A stretch of DNA of 64,000 nt from the NCBI GenBank assembly GCA_020831485.1, contig JAFIGG010000006.1, positions 1 through 64,000 of the forward strand, in the 5' to 3' direction. The notes beneath the pieces are model-generated. The model was not told the DNA's origin. It saw nothing but the letters and a program-made list of their open reading frames with translations, and searched no databases. The stretch is from Opitutales bacterium. Lineage in GTDB: Bacteria; Verrucomicrobiota; Verrucomicrobiia; Opitutales; Oceanipulchritudinaceae. Each line of letters begins with the position of its first letter. Within the stretch, counting starts at the first letter, position 1. Positions 16,630-23,874 of this stretch are shown piece after piece. Made by a program: the position numbers and the translations under genes.

Positions 16630-17751
16630 TTATGCCAGCGGCAGGTGCTCAACGATTTCCAGACCATATCCATCCAGCGCAATGTGCCGCCGGTGGGAGG
16701 AGGAAAGCAGGCGGATCTGTTTGAGACCTAGCTCGGTGAGAATCTGGGCCCCTAGACCATAGCTGCGGAAATCGCTGCTTGAGCTGACTTCCACCTCGCA
16801 CTGGGCAGGATCGCCCGGCACTTTGCTTTTGAGGTCGAGCCCACCGCAGGGACGGGTGATGTAGACGAAGACCCCGTGGCCGTCTTTGGCGATTCGCGCG
16901 AGGCCGGCGTCGAGTGAACTTTTGCCGGTGGGTTTCGGCATGAAATGAAAGACATCTGCCAGCACGTTTTCTGACTGCACGCGCACCAGCGTGGGCTGCG
17001 GTCCCAATTCACCCAGGGTCAGGGCGAAATGGATGCGATTGTCGAGGATGGAACGGAAGATATGTAGATCGAAGTGGCCCAGTTCGTTTTCGAGGCGCTG
17101 CTGGCCGACCTTTTCAACCAGCTTCTCCCGGCTGTGACGGTATTCGATCAGCTGTTTGATCGAAACCATTTTTAGCCCGTGAGTTTTGCGGAATTCTATC
17201 AATTCCGGCAAGCGCGCCATGGTGCCGTCTTCATTGAGGATTTCGCAGATGACACCGGTTGGTGGCAGGCCCGCAAGGGAGGCGAGGTCCACGGCTGCCT
17301 CGGTGTGGCCGGCGCGTTGAAGCACACCACCCGGCCGGGCGCGCAGTGGGAAGATGTGACCCGGCTGCACGAGCAGGTCGGCCGTGGACTGGGGGTTGGC
17401 GAGGAGTTGAATCGTGTGGCAGCGGTCGGCGGCGGAAATCCCGGTTGTAATGCCTTCCGCGGCGTCAACGCTGACAGTGAAATCGGTGCTGTGGGATTCG
17501 CGGTTGTTGGCCACCATTGGATTGATACCAAGGCGCTTAAGCTGCGGTTCGGTAGTGGGGACACAGATGAGGCCGCGTGCGTGGCGGATCATCATGTTTA
17601 TTTTTTCCGGTGTGGCGAGGGTTCCGGCCAAAACGAGATCGCCCTCGTTTTCCCGGTCCTCATCGTCAGTGACGATCACCAGTTCGCCCGCCGCTATGGC
17701 GTCGATCGCTTCGGGGATGGTGTCGAAAGTGTCCGCATCAGCTGGTAGCAT
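16630..17751 (-). CDS. ribB: 3,4-dihydroxy-2-butanone-4-phosphate synthase with degenerate GTP cyclohydrolase II-like domain
   Basis: 373 residues in the RibBA layout. The N-terminal DHBP synthase (about 1-205) is intact: VIVTDDEDRENEGDLV, GLICVPTTE, TGISAADRCHTI, GHIFPLRARPGGVLQRAGHTEAAVDL and GVICEILNEDGTMA hold the Mg2+/ribulose-5-phosphate residues. The C-terminal GCH II domain (about 215-373) keeps the fold signature (HFALTLGE, YGLGAQIL) but has lost the zinc cysteines of SEC and RCDCG: the equivalents are N262, K273 and T275. RQEGRNIGL has become RPCGGLDLK, and the NNP(R/K)K loop SSSHRR. It should therefore supply the riboflavin C4 precursor but not open GTP. No FMN riboswitch precedes it. 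Divergent from the TPR operon. Confidence 0.9.
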   Translation of the reverse strand: MLPADADTFDTIPEAIDAIAAGELVIVTDDEDRENEGDLVLAGTLATPEKINMMIRHARGLICVPTTEPQLKRLGINPMVANNRESHSTDFTVSVDAAEGITTGISAADRCHTIQLLANPQSTADLLVQPGHIFPLRARPGGVLQRAGHTEAAVDLASLAGLPPTGVICEILNEDGTMARLPELIEFRKTHGLKMVSIKQLIEYRHSREKLVEKVGQQRLENELGHFDLHIFRSILDNRIHFALTLGELGPQPTLVRVQSENVLADVFHFMPKPTGKSSLDAGLARIAKDGHGVFVYITRPCGGLDLKSKVPGDPAQCEVEVSSSSDFRSYGLGAQILTELGLKQIRLLSSSHRRHIALDGYGLEIVEHLPLA

Positions 17752-17872
17752 GGGGGCGTAGGCTGGCAGCCGGGTGGGTGATTGTCAAATAACCAGAACA
17801 TCTGAAATTCGGATAGAGACTTTCTCTTGCCTTGGCGCAGGTGTCGCGAAAGATGGGATGCTTTAAGCGTTG

Positions 17873-20509
17873 ATGCGAAATCCCGTTTTAATAATCCTGT
17901 TGGCCGTAGGCTTCTGTCTGCCTGCGTTTTCCGGCGTGGCAGTTGCTCAGGCTTCTCCCGCGGGCGCTGTGCCCTTGGTCGATGTTCCGGTGGACAGTTT
18001 GGAGTGGGCGCGTGACCGCCTGCGGATCGAAGCGGCGGAATCGGCGCTCGCCAGTGGCTTTCCTGCCTTCGCTCTTGAGTTATTGCCTGAAGCTTCGGAC
18101 CGCAGCTACTGGGCCGATTCGGTATTGGAGTCGGTCTGGCTGATTCGTTTGCGGTCCTGGGTCGCGCTTGGGAATATGAGTCGGGCAGGGGCTGCGCTGC
18201 GGGCCTATCCGTTGCCTGACAATGACAGCCTGCGCCTGATCGAGGCTGCCATCGCATTCAGTCAGAACCAGCGTTCACGCATGCTGGAATTGTTGGCGGC
18301 GATCGATTCCGATCGACTCGACCGTGATGAGCGCGCCTGGTATGCATTGTTTCGGGCCCTAAATTATCAGGCGGACCGAAACCTCGATGTTGCCTCGGAC
18401 TGGTTTCAGCGGGCCGAGCAGCTTGCGGACTCGGCCGTACTTCGTGCCAATTTTGAGATTACACGATTTCGCCAGGAACTACGGGGCGGCCCGCCGAGCG
18501 AGGCGACTTTGGGTGGTTTGAGGGAAACCGCACGCCATTTGCAGGGCGAGCTCGGCGGCTTTGAAGCCGCGCGCCTGCTGGCCATCGGCTTGGCGCAGCA
18601 TGGCCGCATGGAAGAGGCTTTGCAGCTGATTGACCGTCAGTTGCAAATGCCCGGACTCACCCGCTCGGGTTTGCGGCCGCAGTTTCTGTTTTTATTGGGC
18701 ATGATCGCCGGTGAGCACAGTGGGCGCGGACGGCTGGCCCTGACCCAGCTTATTTCAGATACATCCGCAGACCTTTACACCCTTGAAGCGGCATTGTTTT
18801 TGCTCGCGCAGGGGTCCACTGATGGCAATCCCCGGGCCCGTTTTCTGGAGGCCTTGAGTGAGTGGTTGGATTCCCCCAGGCCTCATCCCCTGCGACAGCA
18901 GATGCTGGCCCTGAGGGCCACGCTCGCCGCTGCCGGGGGCGCCGTCGCCGAAGCGGAAACGGATGCGCAGGCGCTGTTGCAGAATTACCCGGATTCGCCG
19001 CTGGCGGTTGAGGCCCTGCGCCTGCTGGCGCAGCTGTCCTGGGAAAGGGAGCCTCCCCGTTACCGGACCGCTGCCGGCTACCTGAACCGCCTCCGCCAGC
19101 GGATTCCAGAGGGCGCGCGCCGGGCCCAACTGGGGCTTCTGATGGCAGACTGCTATTATTTGAACGGAGACTTTGTCAGTGCTTCGGACGCCTACAGTAG
19201 CGTCCTGCAGGAGTTGCGGGATCCTGAGCTCATCGCTCGGGCTCTGTATCAGCAGGTTCAGTCTGAAATAGAAGCCGGTCGTCTGGACCGCGCGACGGCA
19301 ATCCTCGACAATGCGGGCTCGGAGGGACGTCTGGACGCCGGAACCCGTTGGAGGGCCGAATGGAATTTGATGGACGCACTCAAGGCCGGGGATGCAGTCG
19401 ACGGGGCGCTTGAGCGCCTCGAAAACCTGCTTTCCGATTCCGGTATGACCGTTGCTGCGGATACTGAGCTGTCGGTGCGCCTGGCCTGGCTGCGTGCGCG
19501 CTTGACTCTGGATATCGGTGCTCCAGATTCCGCTCTGGAGCAGTCTCAGGTCCTGCTGGCGCGCTTGAGGGACGGCGATGGAAGCTACACCCAGTTGCAA
19601 GGGGAGTTGCGCGATGGGGTTATAAGCCATACCCTGATGCTGATCGGGGAGGCGTGGTATGCGCTCGGGGATGCGTCCGAGGCTCAGGCTGTATTCGCTC
19701 AATTGCGTGAGGAATTTGAGGGCTCGGGGCCTGCTATTCTGTCCTTTCTGGTTGAGGCGCGCCAGTCGGCGAGGGGCGATGCTCTGGTGGATGCTCAGCA
19801 ATCGCTGATTCAGTTGGTGAACCTGTTCCCGGACAGCCGCTACGCTCCCATCGCCCTGTGGGAGGCCGCGATTCATGCCGAAGGGCGGGGGATTCAGTCT
19901 CAATTGCGTGAGGCGGTTCAGCTTTTGGAGCGTCTGGTCGATGACTACCCGGATCATGGCCTTGTTTTCTACGCGCGCCTGAAGCAGGGAGACCTTTTGC
20001 GGCGGTTGAATGATTTTGGCACTGCGCTGATTGTTTACGACCGCTTGATCCGTTCCCATCCCGACCATCCGGAGCGCTACCGAGCGGAGATGAGTCGGGC
20101 GGATTGCCTGCTTGCGCAGGCCAGTCAGGATCCGGATAGACTGGAAGATGCGCTGGTTGCTTACGAGCGCCTTATGCTGCTGAGCTCGGCGCCTTCGGAC
20201 CTTCGCGCGGAAGCTGTTTACAAGGCTGCGACTGTTTATCAGATCCGTGGTCAGCTCGGCGCTCGGGCGGCGACCCTGTGGTTGCTGGCCGAACGCTATC
20301 TGCAGCCTGATTCCGAGCAGTACGGAACGCTTGGTGCGAGCGGGCGCTACTGGGTCGGTCGTGGCCTGATCGCCCTGGCCGAGCAGTTGGAGAGTCAGGG
20401 TGATACCGCCGGCGCCCGGCGCCTCTACCGAGGCTTGGTCGCCCATCAGTTCCCCGGGAGCCATTTGGCTGCCCGCCGATTAAATACAGAGCCTTTTGCG
20501 ATACCATGA
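17873..20509 (+). CDS. Secreted TPR-repeat protein of the Exb/TonB-like operon
   Basis: 878 residues from the ATG at 17873 (a TTG codon directly precedes it). The N-terminus MRNPVLIILLAVGFCLP followed by AFSGVAVA-QA looks like a Sec signal peptide with cleavage near 26. The rest is almost entirely helical with Ala/Leu/Arg/Glu-rich, 34-residue-like repeats. The clearest TPR units are in the C-terminal third (ALWEAAIHAEGRG; YPDHGLVFYARLKQGDLLRR; TALIVYDRLIRSHPDHPERY; RLYRGLVAHQFPGSHLAARR). Probably a periplasmic scaffold, analogous in position to YbgF/CpoB of Tol-Pal or the TPR partners of TonB systems. First gene of a four-gene operon; its stop overlaps exbB by 4 bases (ATGA). Confidence 0.8.
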   Translation: MRNPVLIILLAVGFCLPAFSGVAVAQASPAGAVPLVDVPVDSLEWARDRLRIEAAESALASGFPAFALELLPEASDRSYWADSVLESVWLIRLRSWVALGNMSRAGAALRAYPLPDNDSLRLIEAAIAFSQNQRSRMLELLAAIDSDRLDRDERAWYALFRALNYQADRNLDVASDWFQRAEQLADSAVLRANFEITRFRQELRGGPPSEATLGGLRETARHLQGELGGFEAARLLAIGLAQHGRMEEALQLIDRQLQMPGLTRSGLRPQFLFLLGMIAGEHSGRGRLALTQLISDTSADLYTLEAALFLLAQGSTDGNPRARFLEALSEWLDSPRPHPLRQQMLALRATLAAAGGAVAEAETDAQALLQNYPDSPLAVEALRLLAQLSWEREPPRYRTAAGYLNRLRQRIPEGARRAQLGLLMADCYYLNGDFVSASDAYSSVLQELRDPELIARALYQQVQSEIEAGRLDRATAILDNAGSEGRLDAGTRWRAEWNLMDALKAGDAVDGALERLENLLSDSGMTVAADTELSVRLAWLRARLTLDIGAPDSALEQSQVLLARLRDGDGSYTQLQGELRDGVISHTLMLIGEAWYALGDASEAQAVFAQLREEFEGSGPAILSFLVEARQSARGDALVDAQQSLIQLVNLFPDSRYAPIALWEAAIHAEGRGIQSQLREAVQLLERLVDDYPDHGLVFYARLKQGDLLRRLNDFGTALIVYDRLIRSHPDHPERYRAEMSRADCLLAQASQDPDRLEDALVAYERLMLLSSAPSDLRAEAVYKAATVYQIRGQLGARAATLWLLAERYLQPDSEQYGTLGASGRYWVGRGLIALAEQLESQGDTAGARRLYRGLVAHQFPGSHLAARRLNTEPFAIP

Positions 20510-21183
20510 TGGATGTTTACCTTGAATACTCTCTCCTCGAAAGGGGAGGACCCCTGGTCTGGCTGCTGTTTGCGGTCAGCCTGTTTGGCTTTACCATTTT
20601 TGTGGAGCGCCTTCTCTTTCTCCATAAGGGGCAGATCCGCACGGAACCCTTCCTGGACGGTATTAAAAACCTGCTCGGCAAGGGCCGCTTGGTGGAGGCC
20701 CTGACAGTTTGTGAAGAGACCCCGGGGCCGGTCCCGGGGGTTGTCAAAGCCGCTTTGTTGCATGCGCGGGAAGACGAGGCCTCTTTGCGGCGGTCAATCG
20801 AATCGGCAGCGCTGGTGGAGATTCCCATTCTTGAGCGGCGTATTGCAGCTTTGGCAGCCATTGCACGGATCGCACCCCTGCTCGGCCTGATTGGTACTTT
20901 ATTGGCGCTTATGGGCGGGTTTATGGCTCTACAGCGGGGCGATGCTACAGCTTATCCCACTTTTGGAGCGCTCGTGGGAACCGTTGGGGAGGCATTTTTG
21001 ACAACTGTAATTGGGCTGATCATTGCGGTGATGTCGCACGTCGCCCATCATTTTCTGAGCGGGCGGGTGCGGGCTTTGGTTCACGACATGGAGTATGCCG
21101 GGCACCATTTGATGCAGCACCTGCTAAACGGTGATGCCGCAAATGGCCCGAAAACGGAGCTTAAAGATGTCGAGCCTGGTTGA
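20506..21183 (+). CDS. exbB: MotA/TolQ/ExbB proton channel family protein
   Basis: 225 residues. Inner-membrane proton-channel subunit that, with ExbD, converts proton motive force into motion of a TonB-like protein. TM1 at about 16-36 (GPLVWLLFAVSLFGFTIFVE), a cytoplasmic domain about 40-120, then TM2-TM3 with IARIAPLLGLIGTLLALMGGF and TFGALVGTVGEAFLTTVIGL, the conserved signature of the family (Pro/Gly-rich TM2, Thr-lined TM3). Translationally coupled to the TPR gene upstream (ATGA overlap) and to exbD downstream (17-base overlap). ExbB and TolQ cannot be separated from sequence alone; the symbol follows the TonB-like gene downstream. Confidence 0.88.
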   Translation: MMDVYLEYSLLERGGPLVWLLFAVSLFGFTIFVERLLFLHKGQIRTEPFLDGIKNLLGKGRLVEALTVCEETPGPVPGVVKAALLHAREDEASLRRSIESAALVEIPILERRIAALAAIARIAPLLGLIGTLLALMGGFMALQRGDATAYPTFGALVGTVGEAFLTTVIGLIIAVMSHVAHHFLSGRVRALVHDMEYAGHHLMQHLLNGDAANGPKTELKDVEPG

Positions 21184-21622
21184 TCCTCTTAATTTGCAGC
21201 AGCGCATGCGGCGGCGCCCACAGGGCGGTCTGGATCCAACCCCATTTATCGACCTGTTGATCATTCTGGCGGTCTTTGCGCTGGCTGTTTCCCGCTTCGT
21301 TCAGGCCCCCGGCATGGAGCTGGATCTCGTGCGGGCAACCAGCTTTACGCACACGCTGGCCACTCCCACGGCCGCTCTAACCATCGATCTGCACGGCTCC
21401 GTATTCTTTCAGGGGCTGAAAATTCCTGAGGAACGGCTGGCTTCCACCTTGCGTGCTTACGTCGAGCAACAAGCCCAGGAACCACTGGTTCTGCTGGTGA
21501 TGGCAGATGTGAGCATGAATCTGGAACACCTGTTTGGGTTGATGGACATGGCCCGTGAAGCGGGCTTTCACCAGGTCCAGCTTGCTGCCGAAGATATATG
21601 GTCCGGACAAAACCCGTTTTGA
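21167..21622 (+). CDS. exbD: ExbD/TolR family protein
   Basis: 151 residues from the ATG at 21167, preceded by GGAG. An upstream in-frame ATG at 21131 lies deeper inside exbB and lacks support. A short cytoplasmic tail (QQRMRRRPQGGLDPTPFID) leads to one TM helix, with the conserved membrane-boundary Asp in PTPFIDLLIILAVF that carries protons in ExbD/TolR. The periplasmic part has the family's alpha/beta pattern (LTIDLHGSVFFQG, PLVLLVMADVSMNLEHLFGLMD, AGFHQVQLA). Works with the preceding ExbB homologue. Confidence 0.87.
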   Translation: MSSLVDPLNLQQRMRRRPQGGLDPTPFIDLLIILAVFALAVSRFVQAPGMELDLVRATSFTHTLATPTAALTIDLHGSVFFQGLKIPEERLASTLRAYVEQQAQEPLVLLVMADVSMNLEHLFGLMDMAREAGFHQVQLAAEDIWSGQNPF

Positions 21623-21625
21623 GCG

Positions 21626-22396
21626 ATGGAGAGCCCCTGGAAGCGCAATCCCTTTTCAATGCCCCTGATCGCAATTGCGATCGCGGTAGGAGGCTTGGCG
21701 GTTCACGTTGCCGGCCTGTTTTGGATTCAGGTTGAGATGCCTGAGAAGCAATCTCCGGTTCGGGACGAAGCCTTTGTTTTTTTTCTTTCCGGCAAGGAAG
21801 GTGCGCTTGATTCCATGCTCGCCGAGCAGGCGGCCTTGCGCGATCCCGCTTCGCTGTTCCTGCCGACCCGTTGGAATCACGCTGCCGACATCAATCAGGT
21901 TGCCAGCTTGCAGGAGGAAACCGAACTGTTTTCGTCCTATCCCCCTGATCTGACCCTGGCGGGTATCCGGTTGCCGACCCCCCAATCCGTTGGCAGCGTA
22001 CCATCTTTCAATGAGCTGGTGCCCGCTGAAGCTCGCTTGGATCTACGTGGTTTTGGGCGCCGGGGCCAGTTGCTGCCCGAAACTTCGCTTGCTGCAGCAC
22101 CTGAGATCCGGAACTTGCGGCTGGTGGGAGAGGCGGTCGACACGGTCAGTGGCAGGCGACAGTATGTGAGCCTGCCGATGGACAGCGACCGGATGCCCTT
22201 TGAAGGGATTCCTGATCCAGCGGTCACCAGTCATCAGATAGTTCACGGCCGCCTGCCGGGAAGCGTTCAGCTCGACCGCTCATCCGGTTTCTCGGATTGG
22301 GACCTCCAGCTTCTGGAGCGCATTGATGCCGGCTACATTCGGCCTGCAACCGGCGACGGTTACTGGCGCATCACCTGGTATTCTCTTGAGGAATGA
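21626..22396 (+). CDS. TonB/TolA-like single-pass periplasmic protein (diverged)
   Basis: 256 residues: a short positively charged N-terminus, one hydrophobic anchor (about 12-33), then a periplasmic region. There is no long Pro/Lys spacer as in classical TonB. The C-terminal 45 residues (GSVQLDRSSGFSDWDLQLLE ... GYWRITWYSLEE) have the shape of a TonB/TolA C-terminal domain: strand, SSG turn, a helix with Asp-Leu, and a final aromatic strand. The similarity is weak and judged by eye. Position directly after exbB-exbD, 3 bases from exbD, makes an energy-transducer role the most reasonable guess. Last gene of the operon. Confidence 0.5.
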   Translation: MESPWKRNPFSMPLIAIAIAVGGLAVHVAGLFWIQVEMPEKQSPVRDEAFVFFLSGKEGALDSMLAEQAALRDPASLFLPTRWNHAADINQVASLQEETELFSSYPPDLTLAGIRLPTPQSVGSVPSFNELVPAEARLDLRGFGRRGQLLPETSLAAAPEIRNLRLVGEAVDTVSGRRQYVSLPMDSDRMPFEGIPDPAVTSHQIVHGRLPGSVQLDRSSGFSDWDLQLLERIDAGYIRPATGDGYWRITWYSLEE

Positions 22397-22531
22397 AGAC
22401 GGCTGTCCATTGTAGGGAGTTAGACTTGCTGCAGCTTTTCAAAAAAAACCGATTCTTACCCGAATTATACTTGACCTTCGAGGGCTGGCTCAGCAAATTG
22501 CGCAACTTTCTTCGAATCCTTTTCTACATGC
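22397..22531 (+). promoter_or_regulatory. Leader of tRNA-Thr-tuf unit with candidate promoter
   Basis: 135 noncoding bases. TTGACC at 22471-22476 is followed after 17 bases by CAAATT (22494-22499), giving a plausible start about 26 bases before the tRNA. An alternative -10, TATACT at 22466-22471 (5/6 match), lies just upstream but lacks a -35 and is preceded by an A tract that could act as an UP-like element. Neither is strong. Confidence 0.3.
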
Positions 22532-22607
<76 letters not shown>

Positions 22608-22683
22608 TGTCTTAAAGATTCATTAAAGTTCAATCCATTCATCGCGTTTTTCGCACTAATTCAAATCAAACCGAATAGCTACC

Positions 22684-23874
<1,191 letters not shown>

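Follow-up and report, generated by a model that had tools for sequence, protein, structure and literature searches.

Four adjoining genes of an Opitutales bacterium are likely to encode a single proton-driven, cross-envelope machine that is built like Ton or Tol but is neither, and that has been kept in the core Opitutaceae despite loss of ExbD Asp29 and of His27 in its fourth protein. The genes lie in a 64,000-nucleotide stretch of DNA analysed here as a whole (the window) and specify, in order, a large TPR protein, an ExbB-type and an ExbD-type motor subunit and a fourth protein, P4. They add an order-wide candidate TonB/TolA-like transducer, missed by current family models, that has a putative dedicated large TPR partner. 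A single traceable operon comprises both apparently energised members, the window's among them, and orthologues lacking the proton carrier, and this Asp/Asn contrast allows one to ask what role the machine plays without proton drive and which of its parts, the TPR protein and P4, matter alone.

Organization of the operon in the window

The genes and the features discussed below are, in window coordinates:

17873..20509, + strand: TPR gene, 878 aa, ATG start at 17873
20506..21183, + strand: ExbB gene, ExbB/TolQ-type motor subunit, 225 aa
21167..21622, + strand: ExbD gene, ExbD/TolR-type subunit, 151 aa, one transmembrane (TM) helix
21251..21253, + strand: ExbD Asp29 codon GAC, where ExbD/TolR have their proton-carrying Asp; Asn or Ser in core Opitutaceae
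21626..22396, + strand: P4 gene (fourth gene), TonB/TolA-like force-transducer candidate, 256 aa
21704..21706, + strand: P4 His27 codon CAC; TM-helix residue (GGLAVH) matching TonB His20/TolA His22 in position
21842..21877, + strand: P4 family signature in the periplasmic part, DPASLFLPTRWN in the window; consensus DSAPLFLPTxWN
22115..22393, + strand: P4 C-terminal domain, predicted beta-hairpin followed by a TonB-like beta-beta-alpha-beta unit
22532..22607, + strand: tRNA-Thr (GGT), 3' of the operon and ahead of EF-Tu, in a conserved neighbourhood

The open reading frames of the initial annotation, with their 4-base and 17-base overlaps and 3-base gap, were borne out to the base: the TPR and ExbB genes overlap in the sequence ATGA, the ExbD ATG (21167) lies 17 bp inside the 3' end of the ExbB gene, and 3 bp separate ExbD from P4. 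An in-frame TTG (17870) stands just 5' of the TPR start codon, and a scan of positions 17600-22800 detected no promoter-like sigma-70 site on the + strand. The operon is flanked upstream by a divergent RibBA gene and downstream by tRNA-Thr, EF-Tu, NusG and L11; the tRNA is probably not part of the TPR-ExbB-ExbD-P4 machine. TolB, Pal and receptor genes are absent from the four-gene cluster, as had been stated, and TolB and Pal are absent also from its flanks in the window; such genes sit elsewhere in the genome.

Conservation of the gene order

The usual arrangement in Opitutales is TPR-ExbB-ExbD-P4-(tRNA-Thr)-EF-Tu. Of 36 relatives from this order, 33 have a TPR match, nearly always a single strong one per genome, and the best ExbB matches within the order show 34-65% identity. 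In about 21 of the 36 relatives the four genes are contiguous and in the same order, mostly with EF-Tu-NusG-L11 downstream. The same order recurred, split genomes excepted, wherever the contig was long enough among 51 loci fetched with a TPR alignment, a sample that partly overlaps the 36 relative genomes. Over 79 distinct loci, in a count that registers only genes lying on the same fetched stretch, adjacency was observed for TPR-ExbB in 71/72, ExbB-ExbD in 73/73 and ExbD-P4 in 74/74 cases, and P4 adjoined EF-Tu in all 45 loci holding both. Since orthologues of all four proteins occur in this order across Opitutales, the operon is not a chance assembly, and this synteny supports the earlier suggestion of a lineage-specific envelope machine.

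That suggestion had been made dependent on the genes staying together in related genomes, which holds in part: the set is split in a few of the 36 relatives, but the genes are still kept. By whole-genome search, the TPR and ExbB genes have moved away from an intact ExbD-P4 pair in five of the 36 (genus g3, comprising G002, G009 and G013; G005; G024), P4 lies apart in G019 and the TPR gene lies apart in G028. Retention of the separated genes points to a shared function. In G027 and G035, no P4 was seen next to ExbD. In the incomplete genome G004 the TPR gene occupies two open frames (L046:9606-12093), which could be a sequencing error.

Named records encoding TPR orthologues belong to Opitutales, Puniceicoccaceae and Opitutaceae, which places the window's genome with Opitutales. 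A class-wide search returned TPR homologues of ~850 aa in many families, most of them without an adjoining ExbB, so the TPR gene alone is no marker of the system. The full order with a P4-like fourth gene was encountered outside Opitutales in one family, f27, in six genomes from another order of the class (L171, L236-L240; a guaB-like gene follows in L171).

The motor subunits and the TPR protein

The ExbB protein, with three hydrophobic helices, matches the Pfam family MotA_ExbB at 5e-22 (78 bits against a cut-off of 22.9) and TolQ below the cut-off, and ExbD matches the ExbD family at 6e-15 (56 bits against 25.4). Thr131 and Thr167 of ExbB occupy the positions of ExbB Thr148 and Thr181; together with ExbD Asp29 in the TM helix, the window has the proton-carrying Asp and both pore Thr expected of a 5:2 motor. 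Trp19 of ExbB (codon 20560-20562) is nearly invariant in the family and is, by its position, a candidate equivalent of the TonB-contacting Trp38 of ExbB.

The TPR protein gives a Pfam match to PF13174 (1e-19) and matches below the cut-off to the YbgF and BamD models. Residues 1-27 form a hydrophobic N-terminal signal, and no lipobox was seen. Its orthologues are essentially single-copy across Opitutales, at 24-44% identity to the window protein.

The fourth protein is a probable divergent relative of TonB/TolA

P4 of the window is matched by no Pfam or NCBIfam model, TonB (PF03544) included. Like a TonB/TolA transducer, it has one N-terminal hydrophobic TM helix (residues 8-36) bearing a His, His27, at the position of TonB His20/TolA His22, a residue described as essential and as contacting ExbB Trp38/Ser34 (PMC12215075); where the Ser-x3-His motif has its Ser, the window protein has Gly. 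The 126-residue linker contains 9.5% Pro and 1.6% Lys, in agreement with the initial view that P4 lacks a classic Pro/Lys spacer. Orthologues share the TM helix, the DSAPLFLPTxWN signature and a C-terminal pattern, GxxGxPxLxxSSGxxxxDxxLxxxL...GYYRVxxxP, at a mean column identity of 26-29%. A scan of genome contigs with the single P4 sequence recovered no relative, because P4 diverges too fast.

The TonB/TolA-like character proposed at the outset for this protein is supported by the comparison of profiles, by the fold predicted for it, by a family of intermediate character and by the TM His. Compared by hhalign with a TonB_C profile built from its own genome, the C-terminal part gave P=1.8e-4 and Prob 48, as against Prob 1.3 or less for controls with unrelated profiles and with shuffled and reversed columns, and TonB topped the matches of the P4 profile to PDB sequences (E=0.011). 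As the disordered linker diluted the Foldseek search of the full-length model, the C-terminal domain was refolded alone; AlphaFold predicted a beta-hairpin followed by beta-beta-alpha-beta (pLDDT 83, pTM 0.73). The highest Foldseek probabilities for this model were to the TonB C-terminal domains 9dc4 (0.54), 5lw8 (0.51), 6fip (0.30) and 9ddz (0.23) and to TolA domain III (1lr0, 0.28), though no E-value was below 1 and TM-scores were moderate; TonB matches of the full-length model likewise had E-values >1. The P4-like proteins of f27 bridge the two groups: they align with P4 over its length at P=4e-10 (Prob 96.7) and with TonB_C at P=1.2e-5 (Prob 81) in hhalign, and match Pfam TonB_C at E=0.002-0.014, below the cut-off. 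They carry DPSLMSLPxxxxFS where P4 has DSAPLFLPTxWN.

These lines are individually weak and none is conclusive alone; jointly they make a persuasive case for a TonB/TolA-like C-terminal domain. P4 would nonetheless be a divergent relative and is not plain TonB, since it has an extra beta-hairpin, has a non-classic spacer poor in Lys and scores below every TonB model cut-off; the DSAPLFLPTxWN signature also sets it apart.

Loss of the proton-carrying Asp and the coupling His

ExbD Asp29 is present in the window and in most relatives, but in every one of 28 operons of a core Opitutaceae clade its position is occupied by Asn, once by Ser (L120, L122 (Ser), L130, L131, L134, L139-L143, L145, L147, L150, L051, L186-L192, L196-L202). 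These rows represent all 15 genomes read from family f14, six of them single-contig, plus 13 further rows. In a TPR tree they fall into one clade with support 99, whose sister, L138, also from a record labelled Opitutaceae, has both Asp and His. A second, separate Asn was noted in L048/L117, with a sister that has Asp but is already without His. Outside the core clade, Asn is present also in L073:5962-6426 and Leu in L054:5899-6360, the latter locus having no P4 and Ala at both ExbB pore Thr positions.

Both sites could be read in 73 distinct operons: Asp and His occur together in 31, Asp without His in 13, neither in 29 and His without Asp in none. The presence of the TM His in 31 of the 44 distinct operons with Asp speaks for the proposed machine, while its absence from the other 13 shows that it is not indispensable there. 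The ExbB position of Thr181 is Ala in 9/31 Asp-less operons versus 0/42 Asp-bearing ones. The joint loss traces essentially to a single event and a few isolated further cases, and an independent-pairs test, with only two pairs, has no statistical power.

As a control, 29 other ExbDs sampled from eight genomes (six of f14, G008 and G028) all keep the Asp; one further sampled locus was G028's own copy of the operon, with Asn. Assembly error can be dismissed as the origin of the Asn, which is present in six single-contig genomes. Nor was gene decay seen: reading frames of the Asn clade are full length, and when operons at matched TPR distance are compared, its ExbB, ExbD and P4 show no clearly faster divergence than those with Asp. 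Replacement of Asp29 in Opitutaceae by a second Asp, located six residues before it, was also rejected, as that position varies among D, N, S, G and E.

Motor activity is described as absolutely dependent on the Asp of ExbD/TolR/MotB (PMC12905483), so the simplest reading of the Asn clade is that proton drive was lost and another role kept. Our search of the open-access literature found no paper on a TPR-ExbB-ExbD-P4 operon or on a naturally Asp-less ExbD. We see about an even chance that a motor which lost the proton Asp and the coupling His, once in core Opitutaceae and independently in two or more further lineages, has been kept with its operon under selection, de-energised and put to use as a passive complex that spans the envelope, or else driven in some other way.

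Proposed mechanism

In our reading, the window operon specifies a force transducer of the Ton/Tol type that is energised and has a TPR protein as its dedicated partner. By conserved residues and the literature on related motors, ExbB and ExbD would form a 5:2 motor with protons carried by Asp29, along a path that may comprise this residue plus ExbB Thr131 and Thr167. The TM helix of P4 would dock on ExbB via His27, and its linker of ~125 residues and C-terminal domain could carry motion across the periplasm, the domain possibly reaching a periplasmic or outer-membrane partner. Judging by its conserved linkage, the large secreted TPR protein may be a dedicated periplasmic partner or scaffold. 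The job of the machine would most likely be upkeep or assembly of an envelope structure and not uptake via one receptor, a preference that follows from the lack of a linked receptor and from the ordinary TonBs that serve the genome's receptors. In the core Opitutaceae version the complex would, most simply, no longer be proton-driven.

Relation to other Ton and Tol systems

The genome of the window (3.86 Mb, 96.8% complete) is well supplied with other parts of this kind. It contains ten ExbB-family loci, 12 TonB_C matches over the cut-off outside the operon, several in proteins with Pro-rich spacers, and 28 TonB-dependent receptor plug domains over the cut-off, none linked to the operon. A TolQ-TolR-TolA-like trio (L093:4475-6421, G000:C137) includes a TolA-like protein with a long Pro/Glu-rich spacer, a Pal-like lipoprotein is encoded away from the operon, and a TolB-like propeller scores 224 bits, below the cut-off. 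The Pal-like and TolB-like genes occupy contigs other than that of the trio. With ordinary Ton and Tol parts present elsewhere, the TPR-ExbB-ExbD-P4 operon is an extra one.

Ton systems, foremost Vibrio TonB2 with TtpD2, resemble the operon in the ExbB/ExbD motor, the TM His, a probably TonB-like C-terminal domain and a TPR accessory protein (PMC6957404). It is conceivable, if unlikely, that the four genes form a nutrient-uptake TonB system that serves some of the 28 receptors at a distance with the TPR protein as an auxiliary like TtpD2. The requirement of Vibrio TonB2 for the TPR protein TtpD2 (PMC6957404), the many receptors in the genome and the TonB-like look of the P4 C-terminal domain favour such a system; against it stand the twelve other TonB_C matches, several with Pro-rich spacers, the absence of a receptor gene from both the operon and its conserved surroundings, the beta-hairpin ahead of the TonB-like unit of P4, and the Asp loss in core Opitutaceae, which would abolish uptake. 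The TPR proteins also differ in size, 878 aa here against 425 aa for TtpD2.

We consider it rather improbable that P4 does not transduce force and is a single-pass periplasmic component of an ExbBD-TPR complex with no kinship to TonB, the resemblance being the coincidence of a small beta-beta-alpha-beta fold. Foldseek E-values >1 with moderate TM-scores, the absence of a Pfam match for the window P4 and the several lineages that lost His but kept Asp would fit a coincidence, but the sequence profile, the fold, the intermediate family and the TM His all point the same way.

The operon shares with Tol-Pal (TolQRA-TolB-Pal-CpoB) a motor, a transducer and a periplasmic TPR protein, and the initial annotation had likened the two; as an identity this does not stand, the operon having no TolB or Pal and the Tol-like trio, TolB-like and Pal-like genes being at other loci. 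A lineage variant in which the TPR protein is CpoB/YbgF, ExbB/ExbD are TolQ/TolR and P4 is TolA, acting on a distant Pal, draws on the sub-cut-off TPR-YbgF and ExbB-TolQ matches and on the Pal-like and TolB-like proteins of the genome, but is very unlikely given the separate trio with its long Pro/Glu spacer, the lack of TolB or Pal in the conserved gene order and the size of CpoB, which is far smaller than 878 aa.

The preferred reading, a cross-envelope machine distinct from Ton and Tol, has a further parallel in clusters of the PVC group, Verrucomicrobia among others, that contain genes for a TPR protein, a tolQ-like, two tolR-like and a vWA transducer protein (PMC12204202). These are like the operon in the leading TPR gene, the tolQ/tolR motor and a single-pass transducer; the operon differs in having one ExbD and a P4 that ends in a small TonB/TolA-like domain, and Pfam gave no match to a vWA domain in the window P4. 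On another contig of the window's genome (G000:C98; L081, L084, L086), genes for small TonB_C-domain proteins without an evident spacer adjoin one another, and one of these proteins has two TonB_C matches.
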